From NCBI RefSeq assembly GCF_021412585.1, contig NZ_JAKCMI010000024.1:1-64000 (forward strand): a DNA stretch of 64,000 nt, written 5' to 3'. The first letter of the stretch is position 1. Each line of letters starts with the position of its first letter. This DNA is from Halomonas alkalisoli. Lineage in GTDB: Bacteria; Pseudomonadota; Gammaproteobacteria; Pseudomonadales; Halomonadaceae. The notes below the pieces were generated by a model. The model worked only from the letters and a program-made list of their open reading frames with translations. It did no database searches and was not told the origin of the DNA. A program made the translations under genes and the position numbers. This document shows positions 11,971 through 25,892 of the stretch, one piece after another.

Positions 11971-12094
11971 GTGGGGCTCCTGATCAATGCAAACGCATTC
12001 TTGTTGAAGGGATACCGACCTACCCTAGCGAACGCTTGGTAGGTCGGCAATCCCCATTTTCGTCGCAGTGTAGAAATGGTAGTTCCCTGCACAA

Positions 12095-12206
12095 GGGGCG
12101 CCGGGAATGGGTCCAAAGAGGAGGTCATTTGCCATGGATGGCAAATGTAGCGCCCATGGAAGGGTTCACAGCGCCTCCTCGATGGACCCATTGCCGGGAT
12201 AGCCCC
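12095..12206. repeat. Structured intergenic repeat, copy A
   Basis: An element of about 110 bp between hbd and the enoyl-CoA hydratase gene, matched by copy B at 22050-22157. Plus-strand pairing: P1 ATGGGTCCA (12107-12115) with TGGACCCAT (12183-12191); P2 GAGGAGG (12118-12124) with CCTCCTC (12174-12180); P3 CATTTGCC (12126-12133) with GGCAAATG (12140-12147), loop ATGGAT; P4 CCC (12153-12155) with GGG (12162-12164). An outer GGGGC (12095) pairs with GCCCC (12202). The flanking genes run on the other strand, so their transcript carries the complement. Confidence 0.8.
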
Positions 12207-12215
12207 GGGATACGG

Positions 12216-13064
12216 TCAGCTGTAGACGTGGAACCCTCGGCCACTCTTCCGCCCCAGGTAACCGGCGGCCACCATGCGCCGGAGCAGCGGGCAGGGCCGG
12301 TACTTGGGATCGCCGAAGCCCTCTTGCAGTACCTCCATGATCGCCAGGCAGACATCCAGGCCGATCAGGTCAGCAAGCTGAAGCGGCCCCATGGGGTGGG
12401 CGGCACCGAGCTTCATCGACTGGTCGATGTCCTCGGCGGTCGCAGCCCCTTCCTGCAGCAGGAAGGCCGCTTCGTTGATCATCGGCACCAGCAGGCGGTT
12501 GACGGCGAACCCCGGCGAGTCGGCGATGGCCACTGGCGTCTTGCCCAGGGCCTCGGCCAATGCCTCGATCTGCGCCACGGTGGCATCAGAGGTCTGCTCG
12601 GCGCGAATCACCTCGACCAGCTTGAGCACCGGCACCGGGTTGAAGAAGTGCATGCCCACCACACGCTCGGGACGCTCGCACACCGCGGCAAGCCGGGTCA
12701 GCGACAGCGATGAGGTGTTGGAGGCAAGGATAGCCTCATGGGTCAGCCGGCTGAGGTCGCGGAACAGCTTCTCCTTCAGCGCCGGCTGCTCCGGTGCCGC
12801 CTCGATGATCACGGCACAGTCACGCAGGGCGTCCAGTGCCGTGGTCACCGCCAGCCGCTCCAGGGCCGCCCCCTTGTCGGCCTCGGAGAGCTTCTCCTTG
12901 GCCACCAGCTTGCCCAGCCCCTTGTCGATAGCCGCCTGGGCACGGGTAAGCTGTTCGTCGGCCACGTCATAGAGCTGAACCGAGAAGCCGCTTGTCGCCA
13001 GAACCTGTGCAATGCCCTGCCCCATGGTCCCCGCGCCGACTACACCAATCTGCTGTGAGTTCAT
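12216..13064 (-). CDS. 3-hydroxybutyryl-CoA dehydrogenase family protein
   Basis: NAD-dependent 3-hydroxyacyl-CoA dehydrogenase of 282 residues, the length of the monofunctional PaaH/Hbd type. The N-terminal Rossmann motif is GVVGAGTMGQGIA; the NTSSLSLTRLA segment and catalytic HFFNPVPVLKLVE (His of the His-Glu pair) are typical; the C-terminal domain has GFAVNRLLVPMINEA. It oxidises 3-hydroxyacyl-CoA produced by the downstream hydratase. AGGAGAG precedes the ATG at 13064; the stop of the ligase gene is 22 bp upstream, so co-transcription is likely. Confidence 0.9.
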   Translation of the reverse strand: MNSQQIGVVGAGTMGQGIAQVLATSGFSVQLYDVADEQLTRAQAAIDKGLGKLVAKEKLSEADKGAALERLAVTTALDALRDCAVIIEAAPEQPALKEKLFRDLSRLTHEAILASNTSSLSLTRLAAVCERPERVVGMHFFNPVPVLKLVEVIRAEQTSDATVAQIEALAEALGKTPVAIADSPGFAVNRLLVPMINEAAFLLQEGAATAEDIDQSMKLGAAHPMGPLQLADLIGLDVCLAIMEVLQEGFGDPKYRPCPLLRRMVAAGYLGRKSGRGFHVYS

Positions 13065-20944: not shown

Positions 20945-21032
20945 AACGTCCCTCGATATCAATGGAAATTATTTCCATGAATTTCACTTCTACATGACTG
21001 GCAACACGCTGCCAGCCTGCTAGACTGCCTGG

Positions 21033-21169
21033 ACGCTTGACGGGGTGCCGGTGATTCCGGCTGAGATGGCGCAGGGAGCCCAAGGGTGACCTCAGCGCCG
21101 ATCCCGTGGAACCTGATCCGGGTGAGCAGGGCCGCTGGCCCCGCATGAACCGGCGTAGGGAATCAGGCG
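21033..21169 (+). ncRNA. TPP (THI-box) riboswitch before tenA
   Basis: Contains the conserved TPP aptamer core: GGGGTGCC, GGCTGAGA, CCGTGGAACCTGATCC and GCGTAGGGA in the right order. P1 is formed by CGCTTGA with TCAGGCG. The internal loop and variable stem between GATCCGG and CCGG are longer than minimal. Downstream, CTCCGG (21240-21245) can pair with CCGGAG (21258-21263), which covers the tenA Shine-Dalgarno GGAGG, suggesting translational control: TPP binding would favour sequestration. Confidence 0.93.
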
Positions 21170-21268
21170 AAGGGGTTTGATGACACGTCTCTCTGCGCTC
21201 CCCTTCTCTCATGATCTCCCCTGCCCGACTTCAGCCTCGCTCCGGATCCTCGATCACCCGGAGGCTAG

Positions 21269-21937: not shown

Positions 21938-22049
21938 CGGCCTGGCCCCACTGAAAGACCCGCGCTGGCTCTGGTCACACCAGGCGCGGCGGGCAAGATG
22001 TCACTTGCCTAAGCAATTGTCCAAGGCTATCGCAGTTGACGACAGCGAA

Positions 22050-22157
22050 GGGCGCCGGGAACAAGCCAGAGAGGAGGTCCTACGCCAGGGATGGCGTAGG
22101 TAGCGCCCAGGGACGGGTTCACAGCGCCTCCTCACAGGCTTGTCGCCGGATCAGCCC
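22050..22157. repeat. Structured intergenic repeat, copy B
   Basis: Second copy of the element seen at 12095-12206. P1 is ACAAGCC (22061-22067) with GGCTTGT (22137-22143); P2 GAGGAGG (22071-22077) with CCTCCTC (22127-22133); P3 CCTACGCC (22079-22086) with GGCGTAGG (22093-22100), loop AGGGAT; P4 CCC (22106-22108) with GGG (22115-22117). P1 and P3 differ in sequence from copy A but remain fully paired. GTAGCGCCCA and GGGTTCACAGCGCCTCCTC are conserved. It lies between tenA and the thiC riboswitch. Confidence 0.8.
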
Positions 22158-22201
22158 CGAGCGATGGAGCAATCTGCGATAGCCCTGAGCAATCGACCAC
22201 C

Positions 22202-22309
22202 ACGCTTGACGGGGTGCCGTTGAAAACGGCTGAGATCATGCAGCGCAGCGCGCCGAAGCATGGATCCCGTTGAACCTGAACTGGCTAGGACCAGCGTAGG
22301 GATCAAGCG
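22202..22309 (+). ncRNA. TPP (THI-box) riboswitch before thiC
   Basis: Aptamer core GGGGTGCC, GGCTGAGA, CCCGTTGAACCTGAAC and GCGTAGGGA, closed by P1 CGCTTGA/TCAAGCG. It is more compact than the tenA riboswitch 1.2 kb upstream. In the leader to thiC, CTCCCT (22357-22362) is complementary to AGGGAG (22390-22395), the thiC Shine-Dalgarno, so translational sequestration is possible. Confidence 0.95.
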
Positions 22310-22391
22310 ACAGGCAGGCTTACCCACCGGGTCCTGCCCCTGTCCTCCCAGCTGTCCTCCCTGACAACGCACAACAGCCGCAATACCCTAG

Positions 22392-24476: not shown

Positions 24477-25727
24477 ATGCCCCACCTGCATGTAGCGCTA
24501 GTGACAGAGCGTCCCGAAGCCAGCCTGATCCCCCTGCTGCAGCTTCGACCCCAGCGGGTCGTGCTGGTTGCCGGACGGCAGCAGCAACAGACCGTCGAGC
24601 GGCTGCAGATCCTGCTGCAGCACGAGCTGTCCTCTCAAACCGAGATCGATCGATGGGACGAGATGCCGGAGCGAGACCCGCAACGCATCAGTGCGTTCGC
24701 CACTGGCCTGGCCCAATGGCTGTCTCGGCTACAGCGGGACACCCCCGAGCTCACTGTTACCTATGACCTGGCCGACAGCGACAAGCTCACCGCCCTGCTA
24801 TTCCAGCAGGCCATGAGACACTGCAAGGCCGACTGGCTCTATGTCGACAGCCGTGCCGGCGCGCTCTACCGCATGGGGCCGGGCTTGAACCCCTCGACGC
24901 TGGAGGCCGTGGCCATCGAGCCCGTGCTTGATGTCGATACCTTCCTGCAGGCCAACGGCCGCAAGCGCATCAAGGCACTATCCGACAACCCGGCCTGGCG
25001 CAGCGCCGCCGAACGGCACAAGGCCCTGACCCACTACCTGGGCCACCAGGCCGACAAGCTGGCGTGGCTGTTGAGCGAGCTACATGAACGGGTTCACGGT
25101 TCCCAGGGCGCACTCGGCACCGCCGACCCAAACGAAGGCCCACACCTCGACCCATCCGCCCGCCAGCAGCGGCTGAGTCGCGCACCGCACTTCCCCTGCA
25201 CCGACGCACTGAGCGAGTTGAATGCCGCCGGCTTGCTCGAGTGGTCGAGTGCCGACCCTCAGCGGGTGAGCTTCTCCTCCCTGGCGGGGGCACTCTACAT
25301 CGGCGGCGGCTGGCTAACCGAATTTGCCTGGCTCTGCGCCCAGGAAGTCGGGCTGCACCAGGCCTGCTGTGGGGCCCATGTACTCGATCTCAGCGGGCAG
25401 CACAACGGCGAACCCGTGGTCTCCGACTGCCTCGCCGTGCACCACAACCAGCTGCTGTTCATCGAGTGCCTGACCACAGGACCCGGCCCCGATGCCTGCC
25501 TTCAACAAGGGCTCAAGCGACTCCACGACATGCTCGACCACTCAGCCGGACTGGCCAGCACCCGCCTGCTTCTGGCCTGCGGCGAATTCGACCGCGCATG
25601 CCAGCACCTGACCGACCTGCAGCGCAGCCAGGGGCTCGAGGTGGCCGTCATTGAATGCGGCGAGCTGAAGCAACTGCCCGTCTATCTTCGACACTGGATG
25701 GAGACCGGCCGCTGGCCACAGCCCTGA
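24477..25727 (+). CDS. DUF1887/Card1-like CARF-nuclease protein, degenerate motifs
   Basis: A 416-residue protein with the architecture of Card1/Can2 (DUF1887): an N-terminal CARF-like Rossmann domain (MPHLHVALVTERPEASLIPLL, about 1-130), a linker with a winged-helix-like part, and a C-terminal PD-(D/E)xK nuclease-like domain starting at GGGWLTEFAWL (Glu282). The nuclease motif reads D317 ... E330-C-L332, whereas active members have ExK, so the lysine is Leu. The CARF ligand signature, TGGTK in canonical members, reads LADSDK (98-103). No CRISPR array or cas gene is present in the window. AAGGA lies 8 bp before this ATG. Solo relatives such as Vibrio VC1899 are known. The family call is good; function is unknown. 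Confidence 0.75.
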   Translation: MPHLHVALVTERPEASLIPLLQLRPQRVVLVAGRQQQQTVERLQILLQHELSSQTEIDRWDEMPERDPQRISAFATGLAQWLSRLQRDTPELTVTYDLADSDKLTALLFQQAMRHCKADWLYVDSRAGALYRMGPGLNPSTLEAVAIEPVLDVDTFLQANGRKRIKALSDNPAWRSAAERHKALTHYLGHQADKLAWLLSELHERVHGSQGALGTADPNEGPHLDPSARQQRLSRAPHFPCTDALSELNAAGLLEWSSADPQRVSFSSLAGALYIGGGWLTEFAWLCAQEVGLHQACCGAHVLDLSGQHNGEPVVSDCLAVHHNQLLFIECLTTGPGPDACLQQGLKRLHDMLDHSAGLASTRLLLACGEFDRACQHLTDLQRSQGLEVAVIECGELKQLPVYLRHWMETGRWPQP

Positions 25728-25864
25728 GCCTGTAGACAGCCCTGAGCTTGTGAACAGCCATGAGCTTGTAGACAGCCATGAGCTTGTAGACAGCCATGAG
25801 CTTGTAGACAGCCATGAGCTTGTAGACAGCCCTGAGCTTGTGGAACGCCCTGAGCCCGTAAACC
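25721..25864. repeat. 18-bp tandem repeat, eight units
   Basis: Eight consecutive 18-bp units of consensus GCCATGAGCTTGTAGACA. Units 3-6 (25757-25828) are identical; units 1, 2, 7 and 8 carry substitutions, so the core is freshly amplified and the edges older. The stop codon of the CARF-like gene (TGA at 25725-25727) lies inside unit 1. No spacers are present, so this is a minisatellite, not a CRISPR. Confidence 0.93.
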
Positions 25865-25892
25865 AAAACGCCCCCGTCAGGCGACAGGGGCG
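25865..25892 (-). terminator. Terminator of the outer-membrane protein gene
   Basis: On the minus strand CGCCCC pairs with GGGGCG (25869-25892) around a 12-nt loop that can add GTC/GAC pairs, followed by TTTT. It lies 45 bp past the stop of the porin-like gene. Confidence 0.7.

Follow-up and report, generated by a model that had tools for sequence, protein, structure and literature searches.

Two Copies of a Structured Repeat in Halomonas alkalisoli

The window analyzed here, a stretch of 64,000 nucleotides from Halomonas alkalisoli (GCF_021412585.1, contig NZ_JAKCMI010000024.1, positions 1–64,000; its genome is hereafter called the own genome), contained two copies of a structured repeat on the forward strand. 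Copy A (12095–12206) extended from GGGGC at 12095–12099 to GCCCC at 12202–12206, with a covariance model match at 12089–12219, and was flanked by genes encoding an enoyl-CoA hydratase and a 3-hydroxyacyl-CoA dehydrogenase, being antisense to both. Copy B (22050–22157; GGGC at 22050–22053 to GCCC at 22154–22157; model match 22043–22171) was located in sense orientation between a TENA/THI-4 family gene and the TPP riboswitch preceding thiC. Two TPP riboswitches were present in the window, at 21031–21179 and 22200–22319, before the TENA/THI-4 family gene and thiC, and these alone reached the cutoff of a known Rfam family. The window also contained an 18-bp tandem repeat (25700–25879, at least eight registers) inside overlapping ORFs.

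In copy A, the 5' arm of helix P1 (AATGGGTCCA, 12106–12115) pairs with 12183–12192, and the 5' arm of P2 (GAGGAGG, 12118–12124) pairs with 12174–12180. Hairpin P3 (12126–12147) carries the loop AUGGAU (12134–12139, GGA at 12136–12138), and hairpin P4 (12153–12164) carries the loop AUGGAA (12156–12161, GGA at 12158–12160). The corresponding parts of copy B are the P1 arm ACAAGCC (22061–22067, partner 22137–22143), the P2 arm GAGGAGG (22071–22077, partner 22127–22133), hairpin P3 (22079–22100) with the loop AGGGAU (22087–22092, GGA at 22089–22091), and hairpin P4 (22106–22117) with the loop AGGGAC (22109–22114, GGA at 22111–22113). The distance from the GGA of P3 to that of P4 was 19 nt in both copies. 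The first-pass annotation of this DNA had reported two copies with paired differences in their stems, and the arms and ends were found as it had described them. The P3 arms were CATTTGCC/GGCAAATG in copy A and CCTACGCC/GGCGTAGG in copy B, with three paired substitutions, and the P1 arms were ATGGGTCCA/TGGACCCAT and ACAAGCC/GGCTTGT, respectively. Its multi-helix junction was retained as far as the side hairpins P3 and P4 are concerned, but at the core of the fold P2 meets these two hairpins in a three-way junction. Folding of each strand of both copies gave z-scores of −5.1 to −7.1, and none of 200 dinucleotide shuffles folded as well. The feature that matters most, the ANGGAN loop shared by P3 and P4, had gone unremarked.

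Copy Number and Covariation

With up to three mismatches allowed, a 19-nt word from the 3' core had 60 occurrences in the own genome and its reversed form had none, which rules out a chance likeness of two copies. Three of the 60 places (three mismatches and no match to covariance model R1) were not fetched, leaving 57. Model R1, built from 48 own-genome copies (alignment A1), found 65 matches in the own genome at E ≤ 0.01, of which 63 scored at least 88 bits; thus, the 4.87-Mb genome harbors approximately 63 strong copies. Alignment A1 left out seven of 55 copies (L014, the second copy of L019, L028, both copies of L031, L040, and L045) because of indels, inserts or near-duplication.

Standard pairs made up 94.9% of the pair cells in A1 (shuffled mean, 79.8%), two-sided changes were present in 28 of the 32 pairs, and the covariation score was 0.431 compared to 0.160 after shuffling. 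Shifting the pairing partners by one to three columns lowered pairing to 36–51%. P1 and P3, which had been expected to stay paired in further copies, did so in 93.8% (P1, helix 3) and 98.2% (P3) of the cells. A second alignment (A2) comprised 53 copies from other genomes, chosen from 86 P3 hairpins so that the P3 loop was ANGGAN, every sequence was distinct, and no more than eight rows were of the Halomonas type. Its paired cells amounted to 91.4% (shuffled, 59.6%) and its covariation score to 0.779 (shuffled, 0.201); the number of pairs with two-sided changes, 30 against 28.5, did not rise above the shuffles (77 of 500 reached 30), whereas the other measures did. With A2 the fold gained two pairs beneath P3 and, under P4, a GCY/RGC pairing that comes with a UUYAC bulge, although the constancy of the bulge and of the P4 loop in A2 is partly by construction because both are in the scan pattern. 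The covariation in the two alignments provides good support for selection on the repeat as a folded nucleic acid, in agreement with the earlier proposal of selection on an RNA or cruciform structure.

Some copies carried additional parts. The long-form copies (L032, L245, L268, L287, and L288) had a domain inserted at the tip of P3 that held GGCCATGGATGGCC, another ANGGAN hairpin. Five loci (L031, L040, L106, L126, and L148) shared an inserted stretch, GGTCCGGC..CCGG in form, that follows the 3' arm of P2.

Conservation of the ANGGAN Loops

Among the 57 own-genome places, a disrupted copy (L032) and a chance match (L047) were omitted from the loop count. The loop was ANGGAN in 51 of 52 parsed P3 hairpins and in all 52 parsed P4 hairpins, with positions 2 and 6 free and A, G, G, and A invariant. 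The parse misread L027, one copy of L035, and L037, all of which showed ANGGAN in both loops by eye. At the loci found by the pattern scan, the P3 loop, which lies outside the search pattern, was ANGGAN in 80 of 86 hairpins with 47 different 7-nt arms; a P3 hexaloop hairpin of 5 bp was absent in 37 of 123 places, and another four, at the edges of loci, were excluded. A2 was not used as evidence on the loops because its rows were chosen by ANGGAN in P3. A second model, R2, found 75 rows, or 73 distinct copies after removal of two duplicates, with ANGGAN in 65 P3 and 71 P4 loops, counts that are not fully independent because R2 was built from ANGGAN rows. The two GGAs were 20 nt apart in 67 of these copies, 19 nt in four, and 21 nt in two. 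As the stems drift by compensating changes and the loops are kept, the loops appear to be the functional part of the repeat.

These loops resemble binding sites of CsrA. According to the available text of PMC7652899, the SELEX consensus of CsrA is RUACARGGAUGU with GGA in hairpin loops, and CsrA bridges sites that are 10–63 nt apart, with a dual-site optimum above 18 nt. The repeat likewise presents GGA in hairpin loops, in pairs, and at a spacing of more than 18 nt, and the P4 variant UACAGGGAUGUA, found in 8 of the 73 R2 copies, matches the consensus save for the first letter. Because very stable stems may be disadvantageous for CsrA sites (same source, available text), the long stem of P3 would be disfavored and the 3-bp stem of P4 favored. 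The role of a protein-binding RNA that had been suggested for the repeat finds support, as its loops fit the CsrA rule.

Distribution of the Repeat and of csrA

A covariance model search of Halomonadaceae genomes, as the first-pass annotation had advised, was productive: R1 gave 12–75 matches in 24 of the 25 genomes of the genus (own included). The remaining genome, G001, contained csrA and lacked the element. Of 13 genomes from other families in the order, three contained matches (G027, 22; G029, 28; G034, 7). In G027 and G029 (L074, L079, L081, L082, L087, L100, and L102), the P1 arms were approximately 25–30 bp long, nearly perfect, and specific to each copy, with a common core. A species-genome collection scanned with a pattern that combined the P4 loop with the 3' core returned at least 119 stretches, and the 80 matches listed were all, judging by their titles, from what are presumably Gammaproteobacteria. 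The genera among the matches listed included Halomonas, Billgrantia, Vreelandella, Stenotrophomonas, Yersinia, Shewanella, Methylotuvimicrobium, Sedimenticola, Marinobacter, and Arenimonas, among others. In a survey of the class with R2, with at most 10 candidates scored per genome and stricter filters, the element was identified in 81 of 369 genomes and 73 of 272 genera. A phylum sample of 398 genomes, class members included, yielded 45 genomes with the element, of which 44 belonged to the class of the window and one, a marginal match, lay outside it (E = 4.8e-4).

The own genome contained a single csrA gene, and csrA (PF02599) was present in all 38 relatives and in 313 of the 369 class genomes. 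It was found in 76 of the 81 class genomes with the element and in 237 of the 288 without (lists read together; Fisher p = 0.009). For good-quality genomes the figures were 67 of 68 and 213 of 246 (Fisher p = 0.003; lineage and genome size uncontrolled). Five genomes carried the element with no csrA match (G051, G112, G143, G239, and G386), of which G239 was of good quality. This co-occurrence speaks for CsrA but is weak because csrA is nearly universal, and for the same reason, its presence in 38 of 38 relatives, absence of csrA has little power as a refutation.

Genomic Placement and Mobility

Genes were placed with a simple codon-usage gene caller. In the own genome, 54 of the 61 copies placed were in gaps between genes, and seven overlapped called ORFs, all on the strand of the ORF. 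The gap copies comprised 23 in tandem gaps on the same strand as the genes, 13 in tandem gaps on the opposite strand, 16 in convergent gaps, and two in divergent gaps. At the loci of other Gammaproteobacteria, where the count covered loci of 5 kb or more and matches lying farther than 500 nt from either end, the corresponding numbers were 24, 25, 18, and 10, with one copy that had a gene on one side, and 11 of 14 ORF-overlapping copies were on the strand of the ORF. Gaps of at least 60 nt at the latter loci were tandem in 198 cases, convergent in 63, and divergent in 88. Divergent gaps were avoided (12 divergent and 34 convergent copies vs. 88 and 63 gaps; p = 0.0002), the background being the other gammaproteobacterial loci and not the own genome. 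The same strand was used 23:13 in the own genome (p = 0.13), 30:13 when ORF-overlapping copies were included (p = 0.014), and 47:38 in the pooled set (p = 0.39). A strict cis rule was not found in the orientation, as the strand was near even when pooled.

Among 26 places with the end of the dehydrogenase gene (own included), only the own genome and G005 had an intact element. Inspection by eye suggested a long-form or disrupted copy in G019, a partial copy in G020, and a remnant in G009, and the upstream neighbor differed in some genomes. Copy A and its partner in G005 differed by one P1 pair, from T-A to a T-G wobble. Upstream of thiC, relatives either lacked a copy or had a different one, in one or the other orientation (6 of 24 loci were unreadable). 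In the close pair G018 (empty) and G014 (filled), the element was located inside the palindrome GGAGCTCC, and no target duplication was visible at this one clean site; the filled copy, L285, had lost the GGA of P3. Among the joined-flank matches listed, L282/L285 was the sole clean case, and most others were too diverged to read. Presence and absence at corresponding gaps thus support a mobile, non-autonomous element, one of the roles that had been put forward for the two copies. An obligate mobilizer was not identified: PF01797 was absent from 6 and PF00078 from 17 of 38 picked element-bearing genomes. The Y1 transposase (PF01797) was found in the other 32, but loss is possible, and RAYT was not separated from other Y1 proteins.

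Outside the Halomonas type, 14 pairs of copies were arranged head-to-head (5' ends facing) at distances of 37–200 nt (L078, L079, L084, L087, L088, L093, L096, L097, L101, L102, L104, L311, L326, and L327). Unlike these pairs, L073 contained three same-strand copies approximately 94 nt apart.

Comparison with Known Families

The suggestion that the repeat might be an already catalogued Halomonadaceae element was right in that relatives have been catalogued, namely YPAL/RU-2, TwoAYGGAY, and Ysr224, but the family is spread through Gammaproteobacteria far outside Halomonadaceae. A check against Rfam was similarly divided, as relatives at L314 and L111 reached cutoffs, whereas copy A scored 19.9 bits against TwoAYGGAY (RF01731), below the gathering score of 43, and copy B was not among the Rfam matches to this family at E ≤ 10. 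The TwoAYGGAY cutoff was reached in 1 of 20 loci (E ≤ 0.5) and in none of 15 others; the related copy in L314 scored 44.0 bits. As in TwoAYGGAY, whose loops are of the AYGGAY type, two hairpins sit inside one stem, but P4 of TwoAYGGAY is much longer. The loops of the repeat are A-N-GGA-N rather than A-Y-GGA-Y, with G commonest at position 2 of P4, and the layout is otherwise alike. TwoAYGGAY has been listed for human gut, gammaproteobacteria, and Clostridiales (Weinberg 2010, PMC2864571, available text), and it was proposed as CsrA-binding by Gardner and Eldai (PMC4333381, available text); therefore, a link to CsrA is no novelty where TwoAYGGAY is concerned.

The order of parts in the Yersinia repeat YPAL/RU-2, compared by eye with the available text of PMC2759123, looks alike: P3 with CAAGGATG, CATGGATG with a TA-rich P4 stem, and TTTACGGCGTC. 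YPAL/RU-2 is likewise intergenic and mobile with tens of copies, and its target near dyad symmetry may be a further likeness; as far as the available text of PMC2229807 goes, YPAL is transcribed with upstream genes, possibly affecting their stability. On the other hand, it is approximately 168 bp long (the repeat, approximately 112–129), its stems differ, and target duplications of 3–26 bp have been reported in these sources, whereas none was visible at the one clean site of the repeat. The available text of these sources makes no mention of CsrA sites. The P4/3' pattern found a copy in Yersinia proxima, and the opposite strand of this copy (L111 375–481, minus strand) matched Ysr224 (RF02770) with 94 bits against a cutoff of 70; copy B matched Ysr224 with 22.3 bits, again antisense. 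Ysr224 is listed as an sRNA and counted with the commonest ones in bacteria (PMC9029176, available text), but it was modeled on the strand without ANGGA loops.

CsrB- and RsmY/Z-type RNAs are each encoded at a single locus by an sRNA gene that has a promoter of its own, unlike the dispersed repeat. They are similar to it in that each RNA carries several GGA hairpin loops (PMC7652899, available text), and a match of RsmY to P3 of copy B (8.3 bits, E = 5.7) was at chance level. REP/REPIN elements with RAYT share with the repeat the dispersed palindromes, a GTAG word beside the hairpin in the Halomonas type, and the head-to-head pairs in other genera. The repeat differs from them in its length of more than 100 nt, three-way junction, and free stems, and in that a Y1 transposase was not found in six of the 38 picked genomes. 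In the open-licence literature, no paper joining CsrA and YPAL was found, a search for CsrA and miniature inverted-repeat returned one paper, which was unrelated, and the union of YPAL/RU-2, TwoAYGGAY, and Ysr224 as one mobile family with paired CsrA-type sites was not encountered.

RNA or DNA as the Selected Form

Selection on an RNA from the ANGGA strand should tolerate G-U over A-C mismatches, whereas selection at the DNA level or template-switch repair should treat the two alike. The GU:AC counts were 75:21 in A2 (58:17 in the outer P1, with a shuffled ratio of 1.34) and 39:12 in a third alignment, A3 (shuffled ratios 0.87–1.11 by helix); the p of 5e-6 for A2 is too optimistic because the rows are related and the cells are not independent. 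In A1 the count was 26:18, and the excess was not clear. The excess of G-U on the ANGGA strand in two of the three alignments favors an RNA fold. The explanation considered probable is that copies A and B belong to a mobile repeat family of Gammaproteobacteria that acts as an RNA with paired loops, the likeliest partner of which, from the form of the loops, would be CsrA/RsmA. Counted against CsrA are the antisense position of copy A to both neighbors, the near-even strand use in the pooled set, the 37 of 123 places that lacked the P3 hairpin, the loss of the P3 GGA in L285, the long P3 stem, which SELEX did not favor, the absence of copies from G001 in spite of its csrA, the five element-bearing genomes with no csrA match, and the 26:18 ratio in the own genome.

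A purely DNA-level structure appears unlikely; in this reading the repeat is a palindrome of the MITE or REPIN kind that becomes extruded, in hairpin or single-stranded form, a transposase reads the loops and the junction, and RNA is incidental. It would account for the presence and absence of copies and the insertion inside a palindrome, for the head-to-head pairs, and for a bulge and junction residues that are conserved although CsrA does not need them; the lack of a firm strand preference is also in its favor, as are the inner stems P2–P4 of A1, which are almost free of wobbles (1 GU, 2 AC, and 9 other in 816 cells), a state unusual for RNA. It does not predict the bias toward G-U in A2 and A3 or loop variation exactly where CsrA allows it, and among the six picked genomes in which no Y1 transposase was found, G024 consists of one contig with 56 copies. 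A role in the stability or processing of mRNA, comparable to that of ERIC or YPAL in Yersinia and exerted via RNases without CsrA, is improbable: the avoidance of promoter-side, divergent gaps and the co-transcription reported for YPAL agree with it, but it leaves two identical loop rules at a fixed spacing unexplained, and the strand preference is weak.

Covariation can also arise by mutation, since template switching in quasi-palindromes can copy one arm onto the other. The long, copy-specific arms in G027 and G029 and the near absence of intermediates in the inner stems are what such copying would leave; the loops kept across many genera and the bias toward G-U on one strand are not, and a G-U intermediate between orthologous copies was seen once, in copy A and its G005 partner. 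As a replacement for selection, this process is very improbable.

Proposed Function and Implications

Docking of CsrA is the best-supported function of the repeat and is a prediction from its loops. In this proposal, the ANGGA strand would be transcribed by read-through from neighboring genes, and the RNA would fold into the three-way junction, with a long variable P1/P2 stem and the side hairpins P3 and P4 holding their ANGGAN loops with the GGAs 19–21 nt apart. One CsrA dimer could then clamp both loops of a single element. The scattered copies would serve as CsrA docking sites that titrate CsrA beside the CsrB/RsmZ-type RNAs or affect the transcript in which they reside; either effect, as sponge or locally, is conjecture. 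In a wider version, the repeat has carried a conserved CsrA-binding RNA module with two sites across Gammaproteobacteria, and its tens of copies per genome make up a transposable CsrA sponge. Such a sponge would be a competitor of the CsrB/RsmZ-type RNAs, each gain or loss of a copy would alter the Csr network, and CsrA may protect the RNA of the element or help it to spread; this version is speculative and rather doubtful.

If CsrA does bind, current tallies of the Csr/Rsm network would lack dozens of sites per genome, and a global regulator could be rewired when the repeat inserts. YPAL/RU-2, TwoAYGGAY, and Ysr224 (on the opposite strand) would then be joined, and TwoAYGGAY would gain a concrete biological setting. 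Whether such elements act as RNA or as DNA hairpins is a question for a widespread class of bacterial repeats, and here it could be decided by the binding of CsrA.
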